Source of the DNA: Oscillospiraceae bacterium
GTDB taxonomy: Bacteria > Bacillota > Clostridia > Oscillospirales > Oscillospiraceae
Length of the DNA: 40,980 nt
Direction: 5' to 3'
Assembly: GCA_017622995.1 (NCBI GenBank)
Contig: JAGAQA010000037.1
Span: forward strand, 1-40,980
Below are positions 1 to 8,641 of this stretch, in pieces. Made by a program: the position numbers and the translations under genes. Numbering within the stretch: position 1 is the stretch's first letter; each line of letters starts with the position of its first letter. Under the pieces are notes generated by a model, which saw only the letters and a list, made by a program, of their open reading frames with translations, did no database searches and was not told the DNA's origin.

Positions 1-1800
1 AATGAAGAACAGATTGCCATATACTCCCGTAAATCCAAGTTCACCGGCAAGGGTGAAAGTATCGGCAATCAGGTGGAACTCTGTAAAGAGTATGTCCGCA
101 ATATGTTTGGCGAGGAATATGTGGATCGCTGTGTGGTCTTTGAGGATGAAGGTTTCTCCGGCGGCAATCTGCTGCGACCGGACTTCAAACGGATGATGGA
201 GGAAGTGCGTAAGCGCAAATTCAAGGCAATTGTAGTCTATCGCTTGGACAGAATCAGCCGTAATATCAGTGACTTTACGGGGCTGATCGATGAACTGACC
301 AAGCTGGATGTATCCTTCGTATCCATTAAGGAGCAGTTCGACACCAGCACCCCTATGGGCAGAGCCATGATGTTTATTATCTCCGTGTTCTCCCAGTTGG
401 AGCGTGAAACCATTGCTGAGCGTATCCGGGATAATATGCACGAACTGGCAAAGACTGGCCGCTGGTTGGGCGGCAATACGCCTACCGGCTTCAAGTCCGG
501 TTCCGTCAGTAAGATCACCATTGACGGCAAAGAAAGAAAATCCTACAAGCTGATCCCGATTCCCGAGGAAATCGAGATTCCTAAAATGATTTTTGACCTC
601 TATATAGAAACGGATTCTTTGACCGCTGTGGAAGCAGAGTTGCTGCGCCGGAGAATCAAAACCAAAAAGGGGAAGGATTTTACCCGCTTTGCCATCAAGG
701 CAATTCTGCAGAATCCTGTCTATATGGTGGCAGATGAAGATGCCTACAACTACTTCGTAGAAAAGGAAGCGGAAGTCTGTTTCCCCAAGGAAGCCTTTGA
801 TGGTAGCTGCGGCATCATGGCTTATAACCGCACGAACCAGGAAAAGGGAAGAACAACACAGCTTCTGCCGGTCAGTGAGTGGATCGTTGCCATTGGTAAG
901 CATGCCGGTGTGGTTCCTTCCAAACAGTGGATCAAGGTGCAGGAATCCTTGGATAGAAATAAATCCAAGGCATACCGCAAGCCCCGGAATAATGAAGCCT
1001 TGCTGACCGGTTTGGTTTATTGCTCCTGCGGCGAGAGAATGTACCCCAAACTGTCTCAGCGTACTACCGCTTCCGGCGAAGTTATTTACACCTATGTGTG
1101 CAAGATGAAAGAACGGAGTAAGCGGGAGCGCTGTAACCGCCGAAATGCCAATGGCAATATCCTGGATGCGGCGATCATTGAGCAAATCAAATCACTGACA
1201 GACCATGACAGCAGTTTCATTTCTCAGCTTGCAAAGAGCCGTGAGTTCTACACCGGCAAACGGGAACAGTATGAGCGGCAGCTGGAGGAACTTCGGGTAG
1301 AACATGAGATGAACGAAAAAACCATCAATGGCTTGATCGATTCTCTGGGCATGGTTGGTGACTCCCTCGCCAAGCCTCGTGTTTTGAAGCGAATTGAAGA
1401 ACTGACTGATATAAACCGGGATGTGGAGAACCGCATCCATGAGCTGGAAGGTTTGGTCAATGTCAATTCACTTACCGATGCTGAGTTTGATCTGCTGCGG
1501 CAGATGCTGTCCATGTTCCGTACCAGCATTGATGATATGTCCATCGAAGAAAAGCGGGCAGCCATCCGCACCGTGGTTCGCAAGGTGATCTGGGACGGCG
1601 TGAATGCCCATGTGGTGTTGTTCGGAGCCGACGAGGGCGAGATCGAGTTCCCCGATATGGAAGATCGAATGAGTAACATGATTGACGAAAGTACAGAGGA
1701 AGACACCCTGGAAGCCTTCGCAGATGTCAATTATGAGGAGTTTGAAGGCGAAAACCCTGCCACGGACTCTGAAAGTCCTTGGGGAGAGGGTAGCAAATGA
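1..1800 (+). CDS. Large serine recombinase of a skin-like element (5' end outside window)
   Basis: Site-specific DNA recombinase of the large serine family, expected to excise or integrate the element it lies on. The frame is open from base 1, so the start codon is upstream; 599 residues are visible. The catalytic serine motif YSRKS is at visible residues 8-12. The resolvase-type domain follows, with YRLDRISRN and SQLERETIAERI motifs, then the Recombinase domain, a zinc-ribbon-like Cys cluster (YCSCGERMYP, then YVCK and RERC), and a charged coiled-coil C-terminal part. Its TGA stop (1798-1800) lies inside the AATGA at which the sigK frame resumes, so the gene runs right up to the element boundary. 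By position it corresponds to SpoIVCA-type recombinases of sigK-intervening elements. The family call is secure; the role in sigK rejoining is inferred. Confidence 0.9.
   Translation, partial: NEEQIAIYSRKSKFTGKGESIGNQVELCKEYVRNMFGEEYVDRCVVFEDEGFSGGNLLRPDFKRMMEEVRKRKFKAIVVYRLDRISRNISDFTGLIDELTKLDVSFVSIKEQFDTSTPMGRAMMFIISVFSQLERETIAERIRDNMHELAKTGRWLGGNTPTGFKSGSVSKITIDGKERKSYKLIPIPEEIEIPKMIFDLYIETDSLTAVEAELLRRRIKTKKGKDFTRFAIKAILQNPVYMVADEDAYNYFVEKEAEVCFPKEAFDGSCGIMAYNRTNQEKGRTTQLLPVSEWIVAIGKHAGVVPSKQWIKVQESLDRNKSKAYRKPRNNEALLTGLVYCSCGERMYPKLSQRTTASGEVIYTYVCKMKERSKRERCNRRNANGNILDAAIIEQIKSLTDHDSSFISQLAKSREFYTGKREQYERQLEELRVEHEMNEKTINGLIDSLGMVGDSLAKPRVLKRIEELTDINRDVENRIHELEGLVNVNSLTDAEFDLLRQMLSMFRTSIDDMSIEEKRAAIRTVVRKVIWDGVNAHVVLFGADEGEIEFPDMEDRMSNMIDESTEEDTLEAFADVNYEEFEGENPATDSESPWGEGSK
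1..1800. mobile_element. Right part of a skin-like sigK-intervening element (element 1)
   Basis: Only the right end is inside the window. It carries the serine recombinase gene, and the sigma factor reading frame begins directly after it. The boundary is placed at AATGA (1796-1800), followed by GATCCTGATGTAC, which encodes the conserved sigma sequence NEILMY. From memory, AATGA is also the short repeat at the Bacillus subtilis skin junction in sigK. The left end and the 5' half of sigK should lie upstream. Confidence 0.7.
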
Positions 1801-2102
1801 GATCCTGATGTACTTCCGTTCCCAGAGGAAAAGCGCACAGGATGTGTCACTGTCGGATTATATCGAGACGGGAGCGGATGGAGCCCCGCTTGCGCTGATG
1901 GATGTGATCAGTGAGGATGGAGATCTGATGGAGGAGGTCAGCACCAGAGAGTCGGCGCTGTTGTTACGAAAAGCGGTGAAAAAATGCCTGACGGATCAGG
2001 AACGCCAGGTGATCGTACTGCGCTATGGCTTGTCAGGGGAAAGCCCACTTCGGCAGCGCCAGGTGGCGGAGCGAATCGGAATCAGCCGCAGCTATGTATC
2101 CC
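1796..2102 (+). pseudogene. sigK: sigK-type sporulation sigma factor, middle segment of a split gene
   Basis: This is an uninterrupted coding segment of about 102 codons of a sporulation sigma factor. It starts at NEILMYFRSQ (end of region 2) and contains DVSLSDYIETG and LMDVISEDGD (region 3), LTDQERQVIVLRYGL (region 4.1) and GISRSYVS (region 4.2 recognition helix). It has no start codon of its own. On the left it joins element 1. On the right it runs into non-homologous codons (HRGYCKR, stop at 2125) inside element 2. The missing C terminus is at 7442-7492. The SRSYVS-RIEKRAL pattern and the recombinase at the Asn-Glu site favour SigK over SigE. No stop or frameshift is seen within it, so it is better read as a rearrangeable gene segment than as decay, though it cannot be expressed intact in this configuration. 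Confidence 0.85.
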
Positions 2103-2124
2103 ACCGCGGCTATTGTAAACGATG
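2094..2124. other. attL of element 2 (core plus left half-site)
   Basis: The core ATGTATCCC (2094-2102) is repeated at 7437-7445. The element-side half-site 2098-2124 is the inverted complement of 7412-7438 at 24 of 27 positions. The two halves flank a central GT (2096-2097 here, 7439-7440 on the right), which is the layout expected of a large serine recombinase site. Confidence 0.85.
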
Positions 2125-2129
2125 AAATG

Positions 2130-3722
2130 TTAGGAAATCGCTTCAAACTGTGCTGAATTTAGCTGTTTGAAGCGGAATTTGATATAAAGCTGTTTGTCCT
2201 CGCTGAGTTCAATGCGTTCAATGAGGCTGACCAGCAGCTCCCGGCTGGCACAGGCGCTTTCCAAGAAACGCTGAACCAGTGCTTTTGCTTCATCCTCCGC
2301 TTTGGCGGGGGATTCTTTTTTCTTCTCCAGTTCCCTGAGCTGATCCTCCAGCTTGGCCCTATCGGATTTCACTTTGCAATAGATGCGCTGGAAGTCGTCT
2401 TCGCTGAGAATACCGGAGAGCTTATCCATGTACATCCGATCCAGGTTGGAAGTCAAAGACTCGATCTTGCCCTGCAAGGCCTGAATCTCCCCTTCGGTGC
2501 TGTCCGCGGCTCTGGCTGCTTCCACGGCTTTCTGCGCCATTGGCAGCAGCTGGTCAGCGTTGAGATACGCCTGACAGACCTCCCGAACTTTGGCGAGCAC
2601 AGCCTCTGTGACGGTTTGCTCCTTGATGGAGTGGCAGGTGCAGACGCCGGCTTTGGTAAACCTCTGGTAGGTGCGACAGACGAAGAACAGCCGTTCCTCT
2701 CCGGCGGCATTCTTGCGGTTCAGTGTTGCTAGAGGATAGCCGCACTCGTGGCAGAAAATCAACCCCTTCAGTAAGAAGTCATAGGTTCTGCTCCGGGTGT
2801 GCTTGCGGCTTTCCACCAGCAGGCGCACCTTGCGAAAGGTTTCGGCATCTACCAGCGGTTCATGGGTTCCCTCTACCACGACCCAGTTTTCTCTGGGCTG
2901 TTTCAGACACTTCTTCGATTTGTAACTGATTTTCACCATGCGCCCCTGAACCATATTTCCGATATAGGTTTCGTTTTGCAGCATCTCCGAAATCCGTTCG
3001 CTGGACCACAGACCGGCGTAGGGGCCTTTTCTACCCATATTCCACCCACAATAAGTTGCTGGTGTTGGAACGCCCTCCTCATTGAGGGTGGCGGCGATTT
3101 TTCGGCAGCTTACCCCATCCAGCGCCATGGCGAAGATCCGCCGAACAATGGGTGCCACTTCCTCGTCGACGACGATTTTATTCTTCTCTGTGGGATGCAT
3201 CTTGTAGCCATACATGGGCTTGCCGCCAATGAACTGCCCCTTGCGCTGCTTGTCACGTTTGACGGACTTGATCTTCTTGGAAATGTCCTTGGCGTACATG
3301 TCGTTCATGATGGCCCGGAAGGGGGTAATATCATTGGCAGTAGATTCCACGCCGGTGTCGATGCCGTCCAGCAGGGAGATATACCGCACACGCTTTTCTG
3401 GGAAGTACCGCTCCATGTAGTGACCGGTCATGATGTAGTCACGGCCCAGTCGGGACAGGTCCTTGGTTATGACCATATTGACCTTTTTGGCTTCAATATC
3501 CGCGATCATCCGCTGGAACGCCGGACGGTCAAATGTCGTACCGCTGTAACCGTCATCAATATAGGTGTCGTAGACGGATAGCTTATGCTGTTTCACAAAT
3601 TCATCTAAAAGGGAATTCTGGTTGGTAACGCTCTGGGAAGGGCCTTCACTTTCATCCTCCTTTGATAACCGGATGTATTTTGCCACATGGTAAGCCATGG
3701 GGTCGCTGATTTCTAAGAACAT
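2130..3722 (-). CDS. Large serine recombinase of element 2 (TndX/TnpX-like)
   Basis: 530-residue recombinase with an N-terminal catalytic domain (YIRLS at about residues 17-21, then DDGYSGTTFDRP, DLSRLGRDY and the MNDMYAKDISKKIKS region). The Recombinase domain follows, then a zinc ribbon (FCHECGYPL, later FVCRTY and CTCHS), and a long charged C-terminal coiled coil (roughly residues 400-490). The ATG at 3722 is preceded by AAGGAGG at good spacing. The 3' end lies only 5 bases from the left half-site, so the gene abuts its own attachment site, as is usual for this family. It should catalyse integration and excision between attL and attR. It differs clearly from the recombinase at 1-1800, so the two elements are independent. 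Confidence 0.93.
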   Translation of the reverse strand: MFLEISDPMAYHVAKYIRLSKEDESEGPSQSVTNQNSLLDEFVKQHKLSVYDTYIDDGYSGTTFDRPAFQRMIADIEAKKVNMVITKDLSRLGRDYIMTGHYMERYFPEKRVRYISLLDGIDTGVESTANDITPFRAIMNDMYAKDISKKIKSVKRDKQRKGQFIGGKPMYGYKMHPTEKNKIVVDEEVAPIVRRIFAMALDGVSCRKIAATLNEEGVPTPATYCGWNMGRKGPYAGLWSSERISEMLQNETYIGNMVQGRMVKISYKSKKCLKQPRENWVVVEGTHEPLVDAETFRKVRLLVESRKHTRSRTYDFLLKGLIFCHECGYPLATLNRKNAAGEERLFFVCRTYQRFTKAGVCTCHSIKEQTVTEAVLAKVREVCQAYLNADQLLPMAQKAVEAARAADSTEGEIQALQGKIESLTSNLDRMYMDKLSGILSEDDFQRIYCKVKSDRAKLEDQLRELEKKKESPAKAEDEAKALVQRFLESACASRELLVSLIERIELSEDKQLYIKFRFKQLNSAQFEAIS

Positions 3723-3769
3723 AAATTACCTCCTTGGGAAGCTCTGAAATTAGCGACCATTCATCGCTA

Positions 3770-3913
3770 TTAGGATACACCATCCTGGGTGGCTATGGCA
3801 AATGTGCCGAGCTCCTTTTGCAGAAAAAGTCGGAAAGATTCCTGAAGGATATCAGCGATATCTTTTCCCACCTCGGAATACTCACAGTGAACAACGACAG
3901 TTTTCGTATTCAT
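3770..3913 (-). CDS. 47-residue protein upstream of the recombinase, function unknown
   Basis: Small ORF beginning MNTKTVVVHCEYSEVGKDIA and ending at TAA (3770-3772). A strong ribosome binding site (AAAGGAGG, about 3920-3927) lies seven bases before the ATG. It is compact, mixed alpha/beta in appearance, and has no signal peptide or membrane segment. It lies 47 bases upstream of the serine recombinase gene on the same strand, so the two are probably cotranscribed. Similar short ORFs, as far as I recall, accompany this kind of recombinase. A role as a recombination directionality factor is possible but unproven. Confidence 0.7.
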   Translation of the reverse strand: MNTKTVVVHCEYSEVGKDIADILQESFRLFLQKELGTFAIATQDGVS

Positions 3914-3980
3914 AACACGCCTCCTTTGGTCAATGGTATGTAGGAAGCCGAGCTGATTTGCTACCTTCAGGGAATAAGAA

Positions 3981-4006
3981 ACCCCGTGCCGATTACGACA
4001 CGGGGT
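3981..4006 (-). terminator. Hairpin after the metallopeptidase gene
   Basis: Eight-base stem ACCCCGTG / CACGGGGT with a ten-base loop, just downstream of the stop at 4016 on the - strand. The following T-run is weak (TTTCTTATT), so termination may be partial. Confidence 0.5.
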
Positions 4007-4015
4007 GCGAAGGGA

Positions 4016-4789
4016 TTACTTTGTCGAAAGAATATCGCAGATATAGGAATAGCAGCGTTCCTTGGTGTTTTCGGATATCTCAGGAAATGGATCACCGAAT
4101 TCTTTCGTTTTATAGATTACTGCCAGAAGAAATGTATCAGCAAACACTTCCAGTAAATCTGCTCCACTCAAATTTGAATAATCAGCCCCTAAACTGTTAA
4201 GATGGCCGTAAAAACTTTCCGGGAGCTTGTACAGCTCGCCTGCCAAATGAAAGTGAAGCTGATGCCCTAGCTCGTGGAGCAACACCGCAACGGGGGTAAA
4301 CCTGCCGCCAAAGTCATTCCACATCCGATACAGAAAGATGGCCCCGGAACAATCGTCATCGCCGAATACGGCAATGGACTCCCCATTACGCCCATCCATC
4401 TCAGCATCAATGATGGCGATGGAAATGGGATGCAGTTTCTGGGAGAGAGAGAACAGCTCATCGACCATGGCCAGAACACGGCAGATGGTCGGTAGGTCGA
4501 TTTGCGCCCCATCCGAGCAGCTGATTTTGTCTTCGAGACGCAGATAGAGGGCATCGGTACAGTCGTCAAGGCTGACGCTGGGCGTGGTTGCGTAGAACCA
4601 GCGGATGTATTCCAGAACGGCATCCGCCCCAGTGTATATAGGGACTGACCCGATGGAATGAGAGCGGAGGGATTTCTTTGCAACCGCATCATAGAATTGC
4701 TGGAAGGCGTCCTCATCTTCTTCGTAACGCTCCATCAGATGACCAAGCGTATCCCGAAGGGCACAAAGGTTGGAAAAATCAAATCGCAT
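4016..4789 (-). CDS. HELGH-motif metallopeptidase-like protein (ImmA/IrrE-like)
   Basis: Predicted soluble zinc-dependent peptidase-like protein of 257 residues. The motif LLHELGHQLHFH is in the C-terminal half, and a downstream acidic segment LLEVFADTFLLAV may give the third zinc ligand, as in ImmA/IrrE-type proteases of mobile elements that cleave cognate repressors. The start is taken at ATG 4789 (MRFDFSNL), with AAAGGGA eight bases upstream; an in-frame ATG at 4798 is an alternative. The start overlaps the 3' end of the tyrosine recombinase gene (stop 4779), so the two are likely translationally coupled. No helix-turn-helix partner is seen next to it, so a repressor-cleaving role is only a guess. 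The zincin motif itself is clear. Confidence 0.7.
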   Translation of the reverse strand: MRFDFSNLCALRDTLGHLMERYEEDEDAFQQFYDAVAKKSLRSHSIGSVPIYTGADAVLEYIRWFYATTPSVSLDDCTDALYLRLEDKISCSDGAQIDLPTICRVLAMVDELFSLSQKLHPISIAIIDAEMDGRNGESIAVFGDDDCSGAIFLYRMWNDFGGRFTPVAVLLHELGHQLHFHLAGELYKLPESFYGHLNSLGADYSNLSGADLLEVFADTFLLAVIYKTKEFGDPFPEISENTKERCYSYICDILSTK

Positions 4790-5900
4790 TTGTGTCATTC
4801 CCTTTCGTAAAAATCGTGTCTTCCAAAATGGAAGCGCAGTGTTCCTTGCTGATGAATTCCAGATGACCATAGAGGTCGGCGGTGATGGCAATGGAGCTAT
4901 GTCCCAGCCACCGGGATACATCGATCAGCGGCATTCTGGCAGCAATCAGAAGCGCGGCGCAGGTGTGTCTCAAATCATGATAGCGAATCTCCCGCAGATT
5001 GTTTTCCTGGAGAAGTGCTTTGAATTTGGATGTGAGCCTGGATGGCTTGAGAAGCTCATTATGTGCGTTGAGGCAAATATACCCGGATTCCCTTTGACGG
5101 GACATCAGAAGCTGTTCCACTGCGGGGGAGAGGGGAAGCGTCCGGTGGCTGGACTTTCGTTTAGTGACATCCCGGGCAACGATGCCGCCGGTGATTTCGT
5201 TGACGGTGTGGCTGATATGGACGGTATGGCAGTCGAAATCAATGGCTTCCCATTTGAGTCCCAGCACCTCGCTCCTGCGCAGCCCCAAAAGGAGCGCAAG
5301 GGTGACCGGCAGCTCCAAATCGGTGCCTTGAATCGCGGCAAGCAGCTGCTGGCATTCGACTTTGCTGTAATAGGATGCCGTATAGGGAGCGACCTTGGGT
5401 GGAACCACCCGATTGGCGGGATTCTCCGGCAGAAGACCGTCGATCACCGCACAGCCCACAGCCTTGTGAAGGTTTGCATGGTGGCGGCGTACGGTTGTAG
5501 TGGAGAGCCCTCTTTTCAGAAGAGAATCATAGTACGCGGCGATATGCTTTGGAGCCAGGTCGCAGATGGGAAGATTCATTTTCTGGAAATATGGGCAAAT
5601 AGATTTGCGAACGATGAGGGAATAGGCTTTGAAGGTGGTGGGAGAAACCGTAGGCTGCATCCGCTCCAGCCAGTGCATGAGATAGGCATCTACATAGATG
5701 CCCTTGGCGTTCCGGCGCATATCCAGATCGGCGGTGATTTGCCTGCGCTTTTCAAAGAGCATTTCCTCTGCCCGACGGCGGTTACCCTTTGCTTTGAGAT
5801 GGGTTGTGAAGGATCTTTCCTTGCGGTTTCCCATTTCATCGCGATAGGTGATGACCATATGCCAGTATCCGTTTTTTTCGCGTAAGTGTCCTGCGACCAT
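4779..5900 (-). CDS. Tyrosine recombinase (phage/ICE-type integrase)
   Basis: 373-residue integrase. The N-terminal part is an arm-binding-like beta domain (YWHMVITYRDEMGNRKERSF), followed by a SAM-like core-binding domain and the C-terminal catalytic domain. Catalytic residues are visible: Arg in LLGLRRSEVLGLKW, Lys/His region KRKSSHRTLPL, HDLRH, WLGHSS and the Tyr in ADLYGHL. The start is set at ATG 5900 (MVAGHLRE), which has GGAGG at about eight bases; the ATG at 5909 is too close to that motif. A tRNA-Leu-like core lies about 47 bases upstream, suggesting this integrase once used a tRNA-Leu target. It now sits inside an element that has its own serine recombinase, so it may be a captured remnant. 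Confidence 0.92.
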   Translation of the reverse strand: MVAGHLREKNGYWHMVITYRDEMGNRKERSFTTHLKAKGNRRRAEEMLFEKRRQITADLDMRRNAKGIYVDAYLMHWLERMQPTVSPTTFKAYSLIVRKSICPYFQKMNLPICDLAPKHIAAYYDSLLKRGLSTTTVRRHHANLHKAVGCAVIDGLLPENPANRVVPPKVAPYTASYYSKVECQQLLAAIQGTDLELPVTLALLLGLRRSEVLGLKWEAIDFDCHTVHISHTVNEITGGIVARDVTKRKSSHRTLPLSPAVEQLLMSRQRESGYICLNAHNELLKPSRLTSKFKALLQENNLREIRYHDLRHTCAALLIAARMPLIDVSRWLGHSSIAITADLYGHLEFISKEHCASILEDTIFTKGNDTNAI

Positions 5901-5946
5901 TTTTTTCATCCTCCGTGTATATTGATTGCAGAATCATTATACGATG

Positions 5947-5970
5947 GGGGACGCAGCGGACTTAAAATCC
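5947..5970 (+). other. tRNA-Leu(UAA)-like att core beside the integrase
   Basis: GGACGCAGCGGACTTAAAAT, continuing TCC, reproduces the end of the D arm and the anticodon stem-loop of a tRNA-Leu with loop CTTAAAA (anticodon TAA). The flanks do not fold into acceptor or T arms, so this is not a tRNA gene. Its place just upstream of a tyrosine integrase fits an attP-type core that matches a tRNA-Leu target. Confidence 0.6.
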
Positions 5971-6048
5971 CCTGTGCCGAAACAGGCGAGAGATCGGATT
6001 GGGGCGGTGCTTGGGAGCGAATATTCAACAAGAAAAATGTTTTTTGAA

Positions 6049-6077
6049 TTGATGAAAGCTGCAATGGATGCTATAGT
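6049..6077 (+). promoter_or_regulatory. Promoter of the SWIM protein gene
   Basis: TTGATG (6049-6054), 17-base spacer, TATAGT (6072-6077). The start codon follows at 6112. Confidence 0.6.
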
Positions 6078-6111
6078 AAAGACATCGAATCAGGAGAAAG
6101 AAGGGTTAACG

Positions 6112-6567
6112 ATGAGCTTTCTGTCCATTGCCAGTGGGGCGTCTGTCTGGCGCGGCTATGAATATTTCACGGAAAAGAAAGTACGCAGTCTTACAAAGAA
6201 GAGTGACACGCAATTTGCAGCCTTTGTAAAGGGAACGGGAAGTGAGCCGTATTCGGTTTTGGTTGATGTCGAACATCCGAGAAAGTCTGTGTGCACTTGC
6301 CCCCATGCCAGTGGCAGGCGGATCATTTGCAAGCACATGGTGGCAACCTATTTCACCGCGTTTCCGGAGGAAGCGAAGCGTTTTTACGATGAGGCAGTGG
6401 CATACGAGGAAGAGGAGGAACGGCGGCAGGAAGAACGGGAAGATAAGCTGATTGCCTTTATCGGCAAGTGCAAGAAGCAGGAATTGCAGCAGATGCTGCT
6501 GCAGCTTCTTTTTGACGGCCCGGAGTGGCAGTATGAGCGTTTTCTGGAAGAACATTGGATTGAGTAG
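6112..6567 (+). CDS. SWIM zinc-finger protein
   Basis: 151-residue protein with a SWIM-type zinc finger, CTCPHASGRRIICKH (CxC...CxH), at about residues 63-77. Such fingers bind zinc and are thought to bind DNA or protein. The C-terminal part is very acidic and then basic/helical (AYEEEEERRQEEREDK). The start at 6112 (MSFLSIASG) is supported by AGGAGAAAGAAGG upstream and by the promoter at 6049-6077. It has its own promoter and points away from the integrase. It contains no nuclease or helicase domain. Its job on the element is unknown; DNA-binding control of recombination or expression is one possibility. Confidence 0.75.
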   Translation: MSFLSIASGASVWRGYEYFTEKKVRSLTKKSDTQFAAFVKGTGSEPYSVLVDVEHPRKSVCTCPHASGRRIICKHMVATYFTAFPEEAKRFYDEAVAYEEEEERRQEEREDKLIAFIGKCKKQELQQMLLQLLFDGPEWQYERFLEEHWIE

Positions 6568-6601
6568 AAAACACTTTTGCTAACTTTTCTTTCCTGAGTG
6601 A

Positions 6602-6630
6602 TTGCATATTCGTGGATTGGGAAGTATAAT
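6602..6630 (+). promoter_or_regulatory. Promoter of the mntA-hepT operon
   Basis: TTGCAT (6602-6607), 17-base spacer, perfect TATAAT (6625-6630), followed by AAGGAGGG before the start at 6652. Confidence 0.8.
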
Positions 6631-6651
6631 GAAGACGAAGGAGGGATGTTT

Positions 6652-6978
6652 ATGATTTACACACTGGACGAAATTAAAAAGCGTATTCTCCCGGTGATTG
6701 AGAAATACGGCATCCCTGCCATGTACCTGTTTGGCTCCTACGCCAGAGGGGAAGCAACGGAAGAAAGCGATCTGGATTTCCTGGTGGACACCACGGGAAC
6801 CGGGTTGACCTCTCTGCTGACGCTGGGAGCGCTTTATTGCGATCTGGAAGAAGTGTTTCAAAAGAGCATTGACCTGATTACGGTGCGTTCCGTTATGCAG
6901 AATGTGGTAACGGAAAGCGAGCGTAGCTTCCGGGATACAATCATACGGGAAAGGGTGAAGCTGAATGATGTCGCCTGA
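6652..6978 (+). CDS. mntA: MntA-type nucleotidyltransferase antitoxin
   Basis: 108-residue minimal nucleotidyltransferase. The motif GSYARGEATEESDLDF matches the family signature GSx10DxD, with the two metal-binding aspartates and a further acidic residue nearby in FLVD. In the HepT/MntA toxin-antitoxin family, MntA silences HepT by AMPylating a tyrosine near the toxin's active site. The ATG at 6652 is chosen because the Shine-Dalgarno AGGAGG is seven bases away; the ATG at 6646 is only one base from it. The stop at 6978 overlaps the start of the HEPN gene by 14 bases, giving tight coupling. It lies on element 2 and probably helps keep the element in vegetative cells. Confidence 0.88.
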   Translation: MIYTLDEIKKRILPVIEKYGIPAMYLFGSYARGEATEESDLDFLVDTTGTGLTSLLTLGALYCDLEEVFQKSIDLITVRSVMQNVVTESERSFRDTIIRERVKLNDVA

Positions 6979-7312
6979 TTTGCAGAGAATCCAGCATATC
7001 AAAGAGTATTGCGTTGCCATCGGGAAAACCATTGAACGCTATGGTAATTCCTTTGAAGTCTATGCGGCGGATGCGGATTTCCAGCGGTCAGTCAGCTTTT
7101 CCATCTTGCAGATTGGGGAGTTGAGCGGCGGGTTGTCCGCTGAGTATCGGCAGGCGACCGCAAACCGTGTTCAGTGGGGACCCATGAAGGCCATGCGGAA
7201 TCTGGTTGCCCATAACTATGGACGAATGGATCAGGCCATTATCTGGGAAACCGCAACAGTGGACATCCCCGCGCTGCTGCAATTCTGTGAAGAGCAGCTG
7301 TCCGGGAAATAA
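6965..7312 (+). CDS. hepT: HepT-type HEPN ribonuclease toxin
   Basis: 115-residue HEPN-domain protein of the DUF86 type. The RNase motif Rx4HxY is present as RNLVAHNY at about residues 79-86, including the tyrosine that MntA partners modify. The rest is an all-alpha four-helix fold pattern. The gene overlaps the upstream mntA, so the pair is coexpressed with the antitoxin first. The alternative ATG at 6968 is equally possible. As a free toxin it should cleave RNA and stop growth. On this element it would punish loss of element 2 from growing cells. Confidence 0.88.
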   Translation: MMSPDLQRIQHIKEYCVAIGKTIERYGNSFEVYAADADFQRSVSFSILQIGELSGGLSAEYRQATANRVQWGPMKAMRNLVAHNYGRMDQAIIWETATVDIPALLQFCEEQLSGK

Positions 7313-7385
7313 CATTTCATGGGTGAGCGTTTGCGACTATGAGAAAACCTTGATGAATGGCCGCTATATCGTACGAAAATGAGCA

Positions 7386-7415
7386 GATGCCCTGGACGAA
7401 ATTGTCCGGGGCATC
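7386..7415. other. Hairpin at the inner edge of attR
   Basis: GATGCCCTGGAC (7386-7397) and GTCCGGGGCATC (7404-7415) pair at 11 of 12 positions with one wobble, around the loop GAAATT. It overlaps the first four bases of the right half-site. No T-run follows, so it is a poor terminator. It could be a binding site for an accessory recombination factor or the end of the hepT transcript. Confidence 0.5.
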
Positions 7416-7445
7416 GTTTACATTAGCGGCGGTGGAATGTATCCC
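7412..7445. other. attR of element 2 (right half-site plus core)
   Basis: The half-site 7412-7438 mirrors 2098-2124 with three mismatches. The central GT is at 7439-7440 and the core repeat ATGTATCCC at 7437-7445. Bases after it belong to the sigma factor gene. Confidence 0.85.
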
Positions 7446-7492
7446 GCATTGAAAAGCGGGCGCTGCAGAAGCTGAAGAAAGCTCTGGAATAA
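7439..7492 (+). pseudogene. sigK: sigK 3' terminal segment (C-terminal tail of the split gene)
   Basis: From the GT core, codons read Val-Ser-Arg-Ile-Glu-Lys-Arg-Ala-Leu-Gln-Lys-Leu-Lys-Lys-Ala-Leu-Glu and TAA (7490-7492). This is the usual end of SigK/SigE-family proteins after region 4.2 and completes the segment that stops at 2102. The fusion is in frame at the nucleotide level (Val codon split as GT and A). The segment has no start codon and is too short to be noticed as a gene by itself. Confidence 0.85.
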
Positions 7493-7534: not shown

Positions 7535-8641
7535 TCAAATCCTTACCAGCTCATAGGTGTCATCACCCAGTCCGATTTTCTTGGCGTGGGTGATCTGACT
7601 GCGCCAGTTGGTGTGGGGGAAGGAGCCGGTCAGGTTGTCCAGATCGGGACGGTTGGCTTTGTCCAGCTTGGAGCCGGGGTTGACGGTCTGGGCGTTTACT
7701 GCTTCCGCGCAGGCAAGATCCAGGGCTACGGGATCGAAGGAGGCGAACATACCTACATCGGGGACAATGGGCAGGTCGTTCTCCGCGTGGCAGTCGCAGT
7801 AGGGGCTGACATCCCGAACCAGGCTGATGTGGAAGTGGGGACGTCCATCCACCACGGCCTTTGCATATTCTGCCATCTTGTAGTTGAGCATCCGCACGGC
7901 CTGATCGCCGCTGTCGTGGTAGATGGCTTTCACGGGGCACACGTCCACGCAGCGGCCGCAGCCCATGCAGTTGACCCAGTTGATTTTCATCACCTTGCCG
8001 TCCGGCTGGGGGCCTTCGTGGGCACAGTATTTGGCGCAGGTACCGCAGCCGACGCACTTTTCTGGGTCTACCAGGGGACGACCGGCGGAGTGCATATCCC
8101 GTTTCCCTTCGTTGGAGCCGCAGCCCATGCCCAGGTTTTTGATGGCGCCGCCGAAGCCCGCCTCCTCATGTCCCTTGAAGTGGTTCAGGGAGATGACGAT
8201 GTCCGCATCCATCACGGCCCGGCCGATCTTGGCAAATTTTACATATTCGCCGCCCTCCACAGGCACGGCCACATCGTCGGTTCCCTTCAGACCGTCGGCA
8301 ATTAGAATGTGGCAGCCGGTGGAGTAGGGAGTAAAGCCGTTGAGGTAGGCGGTTTCCAGATGATCCAGGGCGTTCTTCCGGGAGCCGACATACATGGTGT
8401 TGCAATCGGTGAGGAAGGGTTTTCCGCCCAGGTCCTTGATGATGTTCACCAGCACCCGGGCGTAACCGGCACGCAGGTGAGCCATGTTGCCCAGTTCACC
8501 GAAGTGAATTTTGATGGCAACGTATTTGTCCTTGAAATCAATCTGATCGATTCCGGCGGAGAGAATCAGTCGGGAGAGCTTCTGGGGCAGGGTTTCCGAT
8601 GTTCCGGTGCAAAAATCGGTAAAGTAGACCTTGGATGCCAT
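7535..8641 (-). CDS. DUF362-family ferredoxin-type iron-sulfur protein
   Basis: 368-residue cytoplasmic protein. The N-terminal two thirds match the DUF362 family (KIHFGELGNMAHLRAGYAR, SLNHFKGHEEAGFGGAIKN). Within it lie two [4Fe-4S] clusters: CVGCGTCAKYC at about residues 193-203 and CMGCGRCVDVCP at about 225-236. Such proteins are thought to take part in electron transfer, but the partner is not known. The start at 8641 has AGGAGG seven bases upstream. It stands alone, convergent with sigK. No promoter stands out in the upstream gap. Confidence 0.85.
   Translation of the reverse strand: MASKVYFTDFCTGTSETLPQKLSRLILSAGIDQIDFKDKYVAIKIHFGELGNMAHLRAGYARVLVNIIKDLGGKPFLTDCNTMYVGSRKNALDHLETAYLNGFTPYSTGCHILIADGLKGTDDVAVPVEGGEYVKFAKIGRAVMDADIVISLNHFKGHEEAGFGGAIKNLGMGCGSNEGKRDMHSAGRPLVDPEKCVGCGTCAKYCAHEGPQPDGKVMKINWVNCMGCGRCVDVCPVKAIYHDSGDQAVRMLNYKMAEYAKAVVDGRPHFHISLVRDVSPYCDCHAENDLPIVPDVGMFASFDPVALDLACAEAVNAQTVNPGSKLDKANRPDLDNLTGSFPHTNWRSQITHAKKIGLGDDTYELVRI

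Follow-up and report, generated by a model that had tools for sequence, protein, structure and literature searches.

Two stacked serine recombinase elements, probably excisable, split a sigK-like gene of an Oscillospiraceae bacterium and belong to element families found well beyond it

The window analysed here is a stretch of 40,980 nt that makes up an entire contig (C27) of a 2.55-Mb Oscillospiraceae assembly in 66 contigs, placed in or close to Candidatus Faecousia and referred to below as G000. Its first 7492 nt contain two pieces of a sigK-like sigma factor gene, the end of one large serine recombinase (LSR) gene directly before the first piece, and, between the two pieces, a 5.34-kb insert with a second LSR gene. 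We call the insert at sigK codon 112 element 1 and that at codon 213 element 2. The features that carry the argument are the following.

1 to 1800, plus strand: LSR1, the large serine recombinase of element 1, 5' end lost at the contig start; Resolvase, Recombinase and Zn-ribbon domains above the Pfam cut-offs; other genomes have relatives at this sigK site
1786 to 1798, unstranded: right end of element 1, arm GAGGGTAGC and core AAAT; pairs with GCTATCCTC (left end, contig C58) with one mismatch
1796 to 2101, plus strand: middle segment of sigK, codons 112-213; NCBIfam SigK is the best model (91.6 bits); joined frame clean
2094 to 2102, unstranded: left core repeat of element 2, ATGTATCCC
2102 to 2124, unstranded: left inverted arm of element 2
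2130 to 3722, minus strand: LSR2, the large serine recombinase of element 2; three LSR domains above the Pfam cut-offs, phrog_95 (integrase)
3770 to 3913, minus strand: acidic open reading frame (ORF) of 47 amino acids (aa) upstream of LSR2, candidate directionality factor; similar ORF at other LSR2 loci
3933 to 3940, minus strand: CATACCAT, -10 motif like those of sigma-E and sigma-K; [GA]CATAnnnT at this position in relatives
7412 to 7435, unstranded: right inverted arm of element 2
7437 to 7445, unstranded: right core repeat of element 2, ATGTATCCC
7445 to 7492, plus strand: 3' segment of sigK, RIEKRALQKLKKALE and stop codon

The sigma frame restarts at 1796 (AAT GAG ATC CTG; NEILMYFR), at the tail of the LSR1 ORF, stays open to 2101, breaks after SYVS, is picked up again at 7442/7445 and ends with a TAA stop at 7490-7492. 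The original prediction called for a search for the 5' half upstream of the window, and such a piece closes contig C58 (minus strand, from 468 to about 136, with the break after RCVEN), where a sigma region-2 match 127 bp from the contig end identifies it as the 5' sigK segment. Joined at the two cores, the three pieces gave a clean frame of 227 residues, which bears out the claim that one sigK frame is split by two inserts and that both restored frames are clean. C58 and C27 would be neighbours, judging from their matching ends; the neighbouring genes were of no use as proof of this adjacency, and the C58 neighbour was found near four LSR2 loci only. In the NCBIfam ranking the middle piece scored best with SigK, ahead of SigE at 71.7 bits, suggesting a SigK-like protein distinct from SigE. 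This naming is by rank, the piece lying below every curated cut-off (91.6 of 252 and 84.7 of 298.65 bits), and full-length SigK copies elsewhere in the genus also score below 298.65 bits. An intact second sigK, which the earlier reading depended on being absent, was not found in the assembly, where the SigK-like matches were SigE and the sigK pieces only. The SigE gene lies uninterrupted on contig C23, adjoining a SpoIIGA-like ORF; SigF, SigA and SpoIVA are also uninterrupted, and SigE, SigF and SigA are separate genes.

Both LSR1 and LSR2 have the Resolvase, Recombinase and Zn-ribbon domains in the expected order (Pfam). The two ATGTATCCC repeats that bound element 2 are 5343 bp apart. Both ends at codon 213 were read in eight genomes (G000, G027, G048, G115 and strains of Butyricicoccus, Pseudoflavonifractor, Colidextribacter and Flavonifractor), and the core ATGTATC was common to six of them, with only ATGT in two (G048 and Colidextribacter). 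The arms TGTAAACGATG and CATCGTTTACA recurred with variation, and the element was found in both orientations, with LSR2 adjoining either the 5' or the 3' sigK piece. The 20-mer predicted for the empty site was present, without mismatch, in 7 of 304 loci, from relatives in which the codon-213 site is uninterrupted. Element 1 is truncated, as the window starts inside LSR1 and the interior of the element lies outside the assembly. Ends at codon 112 were read in 11 genomes (both ends in seven), all with AAT/G in common, and the arms GAGGATAGC and GCTATCCTC were near-palindromic in most and weaker in G011, G118 and G120. A chance match of frames was excluded by the cores, the arms, the relatives and the empty site.

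The sigK states of 136 genomes of the genus were tallied by hand from profile ranges, an intact call requiring at least two full-length SigK/SigE-like rows; part of the tally used E 1e-23, so that weak middle pieces may be missed. The gene was intact in 59 genomes, interrupted at codon 213 only in 10, at codon 66 only in 7 and at codon 112 only in 22 (among them G086, although a codon-213 right end sits on another of its contigs), doubly interrupted in 6, cut by a contig end in 1 (G046) and not readable in 31. It is thus interrupted in 45 of 104 readable genomes, at three sites (codons 66, 112 and 213), each served by its own recombinase family. The comparison with related genomes that the original prediction proposed thus did turn up uninterrupted genes, and its claim that two different serine recombinase elements sit in one sigK held. 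Double interruption is not unique to G000: five more genomes of the genus have it, in three site combinations in all, namely 112+213 (G000, G118, G128), 66+213 (G115, G122) and 66+112 (G019). These counts of 3, 2 and 1 compare with 3.8, 1.4 and 2.5 expected if the sites were filled independently.

LSR2 was found at E<=1e-150 in 15 of the 136 genomes. For a broader sample we took the best 80 of 435 relatives of LSR2 (one genome per species) and nine from viral contigs, giving 89 loci. Among the 85 with enough flank, LSR2 relatives adjoined sigK codon 213 in 63, compared with 2 of 3950 control windows; at the recombinase end, 57 had the 3' sigK motif, 6 the 5' motif and 22 neither, and some of these 22 proved to be sigK by BLAST. 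We also examined eleven named genomes, selected for carrying LSR2. Four were doubles (Flavonifractor An82, Oscillibacter valericigenes An907, Oscillibacter ER4 and a Subdoligranulum metagenome-assembled genome, MAG), five had the codon-213 interruption alone, and two Faecousia MAGs had no split sigK. Double interruption thus occurs in cultured gut bacteria as well (An82 and the two Oscillibacter strains), and in ER4 the 5' and middle sigK pieces lie on one contig. The original observation is right, and it reaches well beyond the window.

Two of these loci showed further features. The codon-213 element of Flavonifractor sp. An82 (L260/L261, L197) would be about 103 kb long if the coordinates of two contig reads agree, and it encodes a type IV secretion coupling protein. 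G064 (L142/L187, C32) has a full-length sigK together with a 3.4-kb contig carrying LSR2 and a different sigK 3' end. We rejected this pair as excised and integrated forms in one assembly, the two 3' ends differing and having no common 20-mer; the 3.4-kb contig probably comes from another organism.

We then considered constraint on the gene and the age of the elements. The segments of the 30 interrupted sigK genes that were read are free of stops, apart from the junction codon in G043 and in G058. Over codons 112-210, the median ratio of nonsynonymous to synonymous substitution rates (dN/dS) was 0.22 for intact pairs, 0.28, 0.23 and 0.16 for pairs interrupted at sites 112, 213 and 66, respectively, and 0.27 for pairs of doubles. 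We dropped dN/dS as a decisive test and used it as support only, given the saturation of dS and the possible youth of element 2. The SigK/SigE divergence ratio of G000 was 1.01, the lowest of 19, indicating that its SigK is not fast-evolving, and LSR2 is under constraint (dN 0.010 and dS 0.19 between G000 and G122). Between G115 and G122, the sigK middle piece gave dN 0.036 and dS 0.64, the codon-66 recombinase LSR3 gave dS 0.85, and LSR2 gave dS 0.28. These values suggest that the codon-213 elements arrived after the two hosts had diverged, and that the codon-66 elements may be old or separately inserted. Element 2 of G000 and that of G115 are 94.5% identical over 5364 bp, and the sigK pieces of the two genomes have a dS of 1.86, which suggests that element 2 moves between species.

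The 47-aa ORF has a computed isoelectric point of 4.7, and neither Pfam nor PHROG has a family that it matches. Of 102 loci, among which some genomes appear twice, 84 have a comparable small ORF upstream of LSR2. Promoters were analysed in the 58 of 90 loci that had a start codon, a ribosome site and 110 nt upstream, 41 of them non-redundant. The motif [GA]CATAnnnT, which we take to fit the -10 of sigma-E and sigma-K, was found at -20 to -42 before the small ORF in 34 of the 41 non-redundant codon-213 loci, with 0.3 expected, and the window copy lies at 3940-3933. Codon-66 elements have a different small ORF before LSR3, and CATAnnnT precedes it in 8 of 8 (0.14 expected). Two further patterns were set aside: the sigma-K -35 and -10 as a single pattern (4 of 41, 0.5 expected) and the SpoIIID box (8 of 41, 0.8 expected; none seen in the window). 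The conserved -10-like motif before the 47-aa ORF may point to excision of element 2 in the mother cell.

We consider it probable, at roughly 0.6, that sigK holds a stack of two mobile elements, independent of one another and site-specific, that each of them has a separate LSR and a separate attachment site in the gene, and that each is precisely excisable. Each element would leave through recombination between its core repeats, restoring the frame. The 47-aa ORF and LSR2 would form an operon read from a sigma-E/sigma-K-type promoter, and excision would therefore be switched on in the mother cell, which would die, and the spore would keep the element. Full-length SigK would be made only after both excisions, in a strain that presumably still sporulates. 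Our preferred reading of the stacking is the independent use of one harbour by two mobile elements, not a purpose-built two-key switch.

A number of observations weigh against this explanation, in which excision is predicted from sequence. The exact sigma-E consensus CATACANT was found in 0 of the 58 loci, and relatives of LSR1 showed no enrichment of the -10 motif (1 of 7, 1.1 expected). Median dN/dS over codons 112-210 was higher, at 0.31, when doubles were compared with intact genes, and the double G128 had the highest SigK/SigE ratio of the 19 (1.75). For element 2, which may be young, the intactness of the segments carries little weight. The stretch read in G128 (L131) yielded no 3' sigK piece, and in G000 two other kinds of sporulation gene are split or damaged. 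Its sigG is split, with the 5' half on C36 and the 3' half on C4 right behind another large serine recombinase, and the 5' half has a divergence of 0.242, compared with at most 0.200 in eight intact copies. No undamaged gene for a small acid-soluble spore protein (SASP) was found in G000, only two damaged copies on C61. SASP and sigG act in the forespore. The loci concerned are listed here.

L023 (C36), 2126-1839, minus strand: sigG 5' half of G000, split after KFSTYGVP
L027 (C4), 471-2231 and 2249-2755, plus strand: recombinase and sigG 3' half of G000
L274 (C61), 6756-6980 and 8200-8474, minus strand: SASP-like copies of G000, 97% identical
L275, 6929-8850, and L291, L294, L295, L290 and L297: split-SASP loci with recombinase in other genomes

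In both SASP-like copies the length differs by 1 nt and the sequence beyond GGQMVK is foreign. Interruption of sigG at one and the same site was found in G000, G019 (judged from the 3' half alone), G046, G114 and G128 among the 136 genomes searched, and also in Flavonifractor An82; in G019, G046, G114 and G128 the divergence of sigG does not exceed that of intact copies. An alpha/beta SASP gene is split near model residue 28 in G043, G056, G058, G060, G084 and G122, where a related recombinase adjoins one of the halves; both halves, with no recombinase read, were found in G111, and only 5' halves in G115, G118, G123, G124, G127 and G135. Several side observations were made at these genes. The ssp-element recombinase has a TTGACA/TATAAT promoter and a separate small ORF upstream of it. 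A sigma-F/G-type promoter before this small ORF looked alike by eye in five loci, and the generic pattern matched in 1 of 5, with random windows drawn from the same loci as the test, so we keep it as a lead only. Many SASP matches (L283, L284, L285-L288, L299-L303) stop at model position 49-52 and not 59, and no recombinase or 3' end for them was found in the flanks read; those of G054 and G132 diverge directly after GGQMVK. Less than 7 kb of G128 (L131, contig C8, 1299-8018) holds the middle segment of sigK, LSR2 and the 3' half of its split sigG, a region that may be rearranged.

The lineage may instead be losing sporulation, or have lost it, with elements collecting in sigK, sigG and ssp as genes that have become dispensable and the pieces looking intact for no other reason than that the insertions are recent; we regard this as possible, though not as the probable course. 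Split sigG, the damaged SASP-like genes and the G128 findings fit decay in some lineages. The SASP-like copies share the same lesions and no other copy was found, element 2 is recently shared with G115, and the sigG-interrupted genomes with readable sigK are all sigK doubles (3 of 3, compared with 3 doubles among 101 others; Fisher p 1e-4, relatedness ignored). For G000 itself, the recent sporulation-blocking insertion that the original prediction gave as its second option is a possibility because sigG is split and the SASP-like genes are damaged. The segments are nevertheless in frame, SigK and SpoIVA are undecayed, and the same sites recur across many species with conserved recombinases and a mother-cell-like promoter; moreover, the double isolates An82, An907 and ER4 have a full-length or near-full-length SASP match.

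The first option of that prediction, a two-key developmental switch, found no support. We consider it very unlikely that the host retains two elements because two excisions tighten SigK timing. Doubles do recur, in at least ten genomes, but they are about as frequent as independent filling predicts, element 2 is mobile, and sigK is intact in more than half of the readable genomes (59/104). Least credible of all is an assembly artefact in which C58 and C27 do not adjoin or an insert is chimeric. The assembly is fragmented into 66 contigs, C58 and C27 both end inside element 1, and their neighbour genes were not found beside sigK in 50 intact loci; against this stand the three pieces (5', middle and 3'), each present once and with ends that match, the recurrence of the 5.34-kb insert at this site in the separate assembly G115, and the single ER4 contig with both 5' and middle pieces. 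Two independent, probably excisable elements remain our preferred explanation.

The interior of element 2 holds the following other genes.

4019 to 4798, minus strand: cargo protein with no NCBIfam, Pfam or PHROG match
4779 to 5909, minus strand: tyrosine recombinase (Phage_integrase, Pfam)
6112 to 6567, plus strand: SWIM zinc-finger protein, cargo (Pfam)
6652 to 6978, plus strand: MntA-like nucleotidyltransferase, cargo; Pfam domains above cut-off
6965 to 7312, plus strand: HepT-like protein, cargo; Pfam above cut-off

The tyrosine recombinase inside a serine recombinase element may mark nested cargo. The MntA-like and HepT-like proteins scored 45.5 and 28.8 bits in NCBIfam, below the cut-offs of 60, and were not assigned to a type VII toxin-antitoxin MntA/HepT system.

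That sigK can lose DNA in a programmed manner is textbook knowledge, with one element per gene. In Clostridioides difficile, the skin element in sigK has the LSR CD1231, the acidic 53-aa recombination directionality factor (RDF) CD1234 and mother-cell control (PMC5025042, PMC10747680); the LSR is made in vegetative cells and the mother-cell RDF sets the timing (PMC5025042). The codon-112 interruption appears skin-like: element 1 resembles skin in place and kind, being an LSR element in sigK with the recombinase adjoining a sigK piece. The acidic ORF of element 2 resembles the C. difficile RDF in its small size (47 and 53 aa). Skin is one element per gene, whereas two are stacked here. The gin element in gerE of Bacillus cereus ATCC10987 is described as a non-prophage insert that occupies a small sporulation gene and has serine recombinases and a core of 9 bp (PMC5595907). 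Element 2 likewise has a repeat of 9 bp, and none of its recognised ORFs is a phage structural gene, but it lies in sigK, is 5.34 kb long and has one serine recombinase, whereas gin is 28.6 kb long with three. SP-beta in spsM of Bacillus subtilis is excised by an LSR and a mother-cell-expressed RDF (PMC4191935), as we propose here, but it is an active prophage and its target is a coat polysaccharide gene. Integrative and conjugative element (ICE)-like LSR elements share the recombinase type, and the An82 codon-213 element has its coupling protein; what sets the present case apart is attachment within a developmental sigma gene, together with excision genes that follow a mother-cell-like promoter. 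In the literature searched (titles and the starts of abstracts, with preprints and most subscription papers outside it), the codon-213 and codon-66 sites, two elements in one sigK, and a split sigG or SASP gene were unreported.

Taken together, three element families occupy three sites of one gene, sometimes two at once, in common gut bacteria. We suggest, as a tentative and rather doubtful extension, that Faecousia and its relatives harbour element families each dedicated to one site (three in sigK, one in sigG and one in an alpha/beta SASP gene), with excision tied to the compartment that needs the gene, the mother cell for sigK and the forespore for sigG and ssp. If this is true, an element of the forespore kind would leave the spore's own chromosome and would have to return after germination, a germ-line cycle of excision and return. 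The elements described in the reports cited above lie in mother-cell genes. Confinement of excision to the mother cell is the way in which such elements are stated to persist (PMC4191935), and elements that left split sigG and ssp genes in the forespore, if they do so, would break this mother-cell-only rule. Whether two recombinations are needed before late sporulation starts becomes a question that can be tested in cultured strains.

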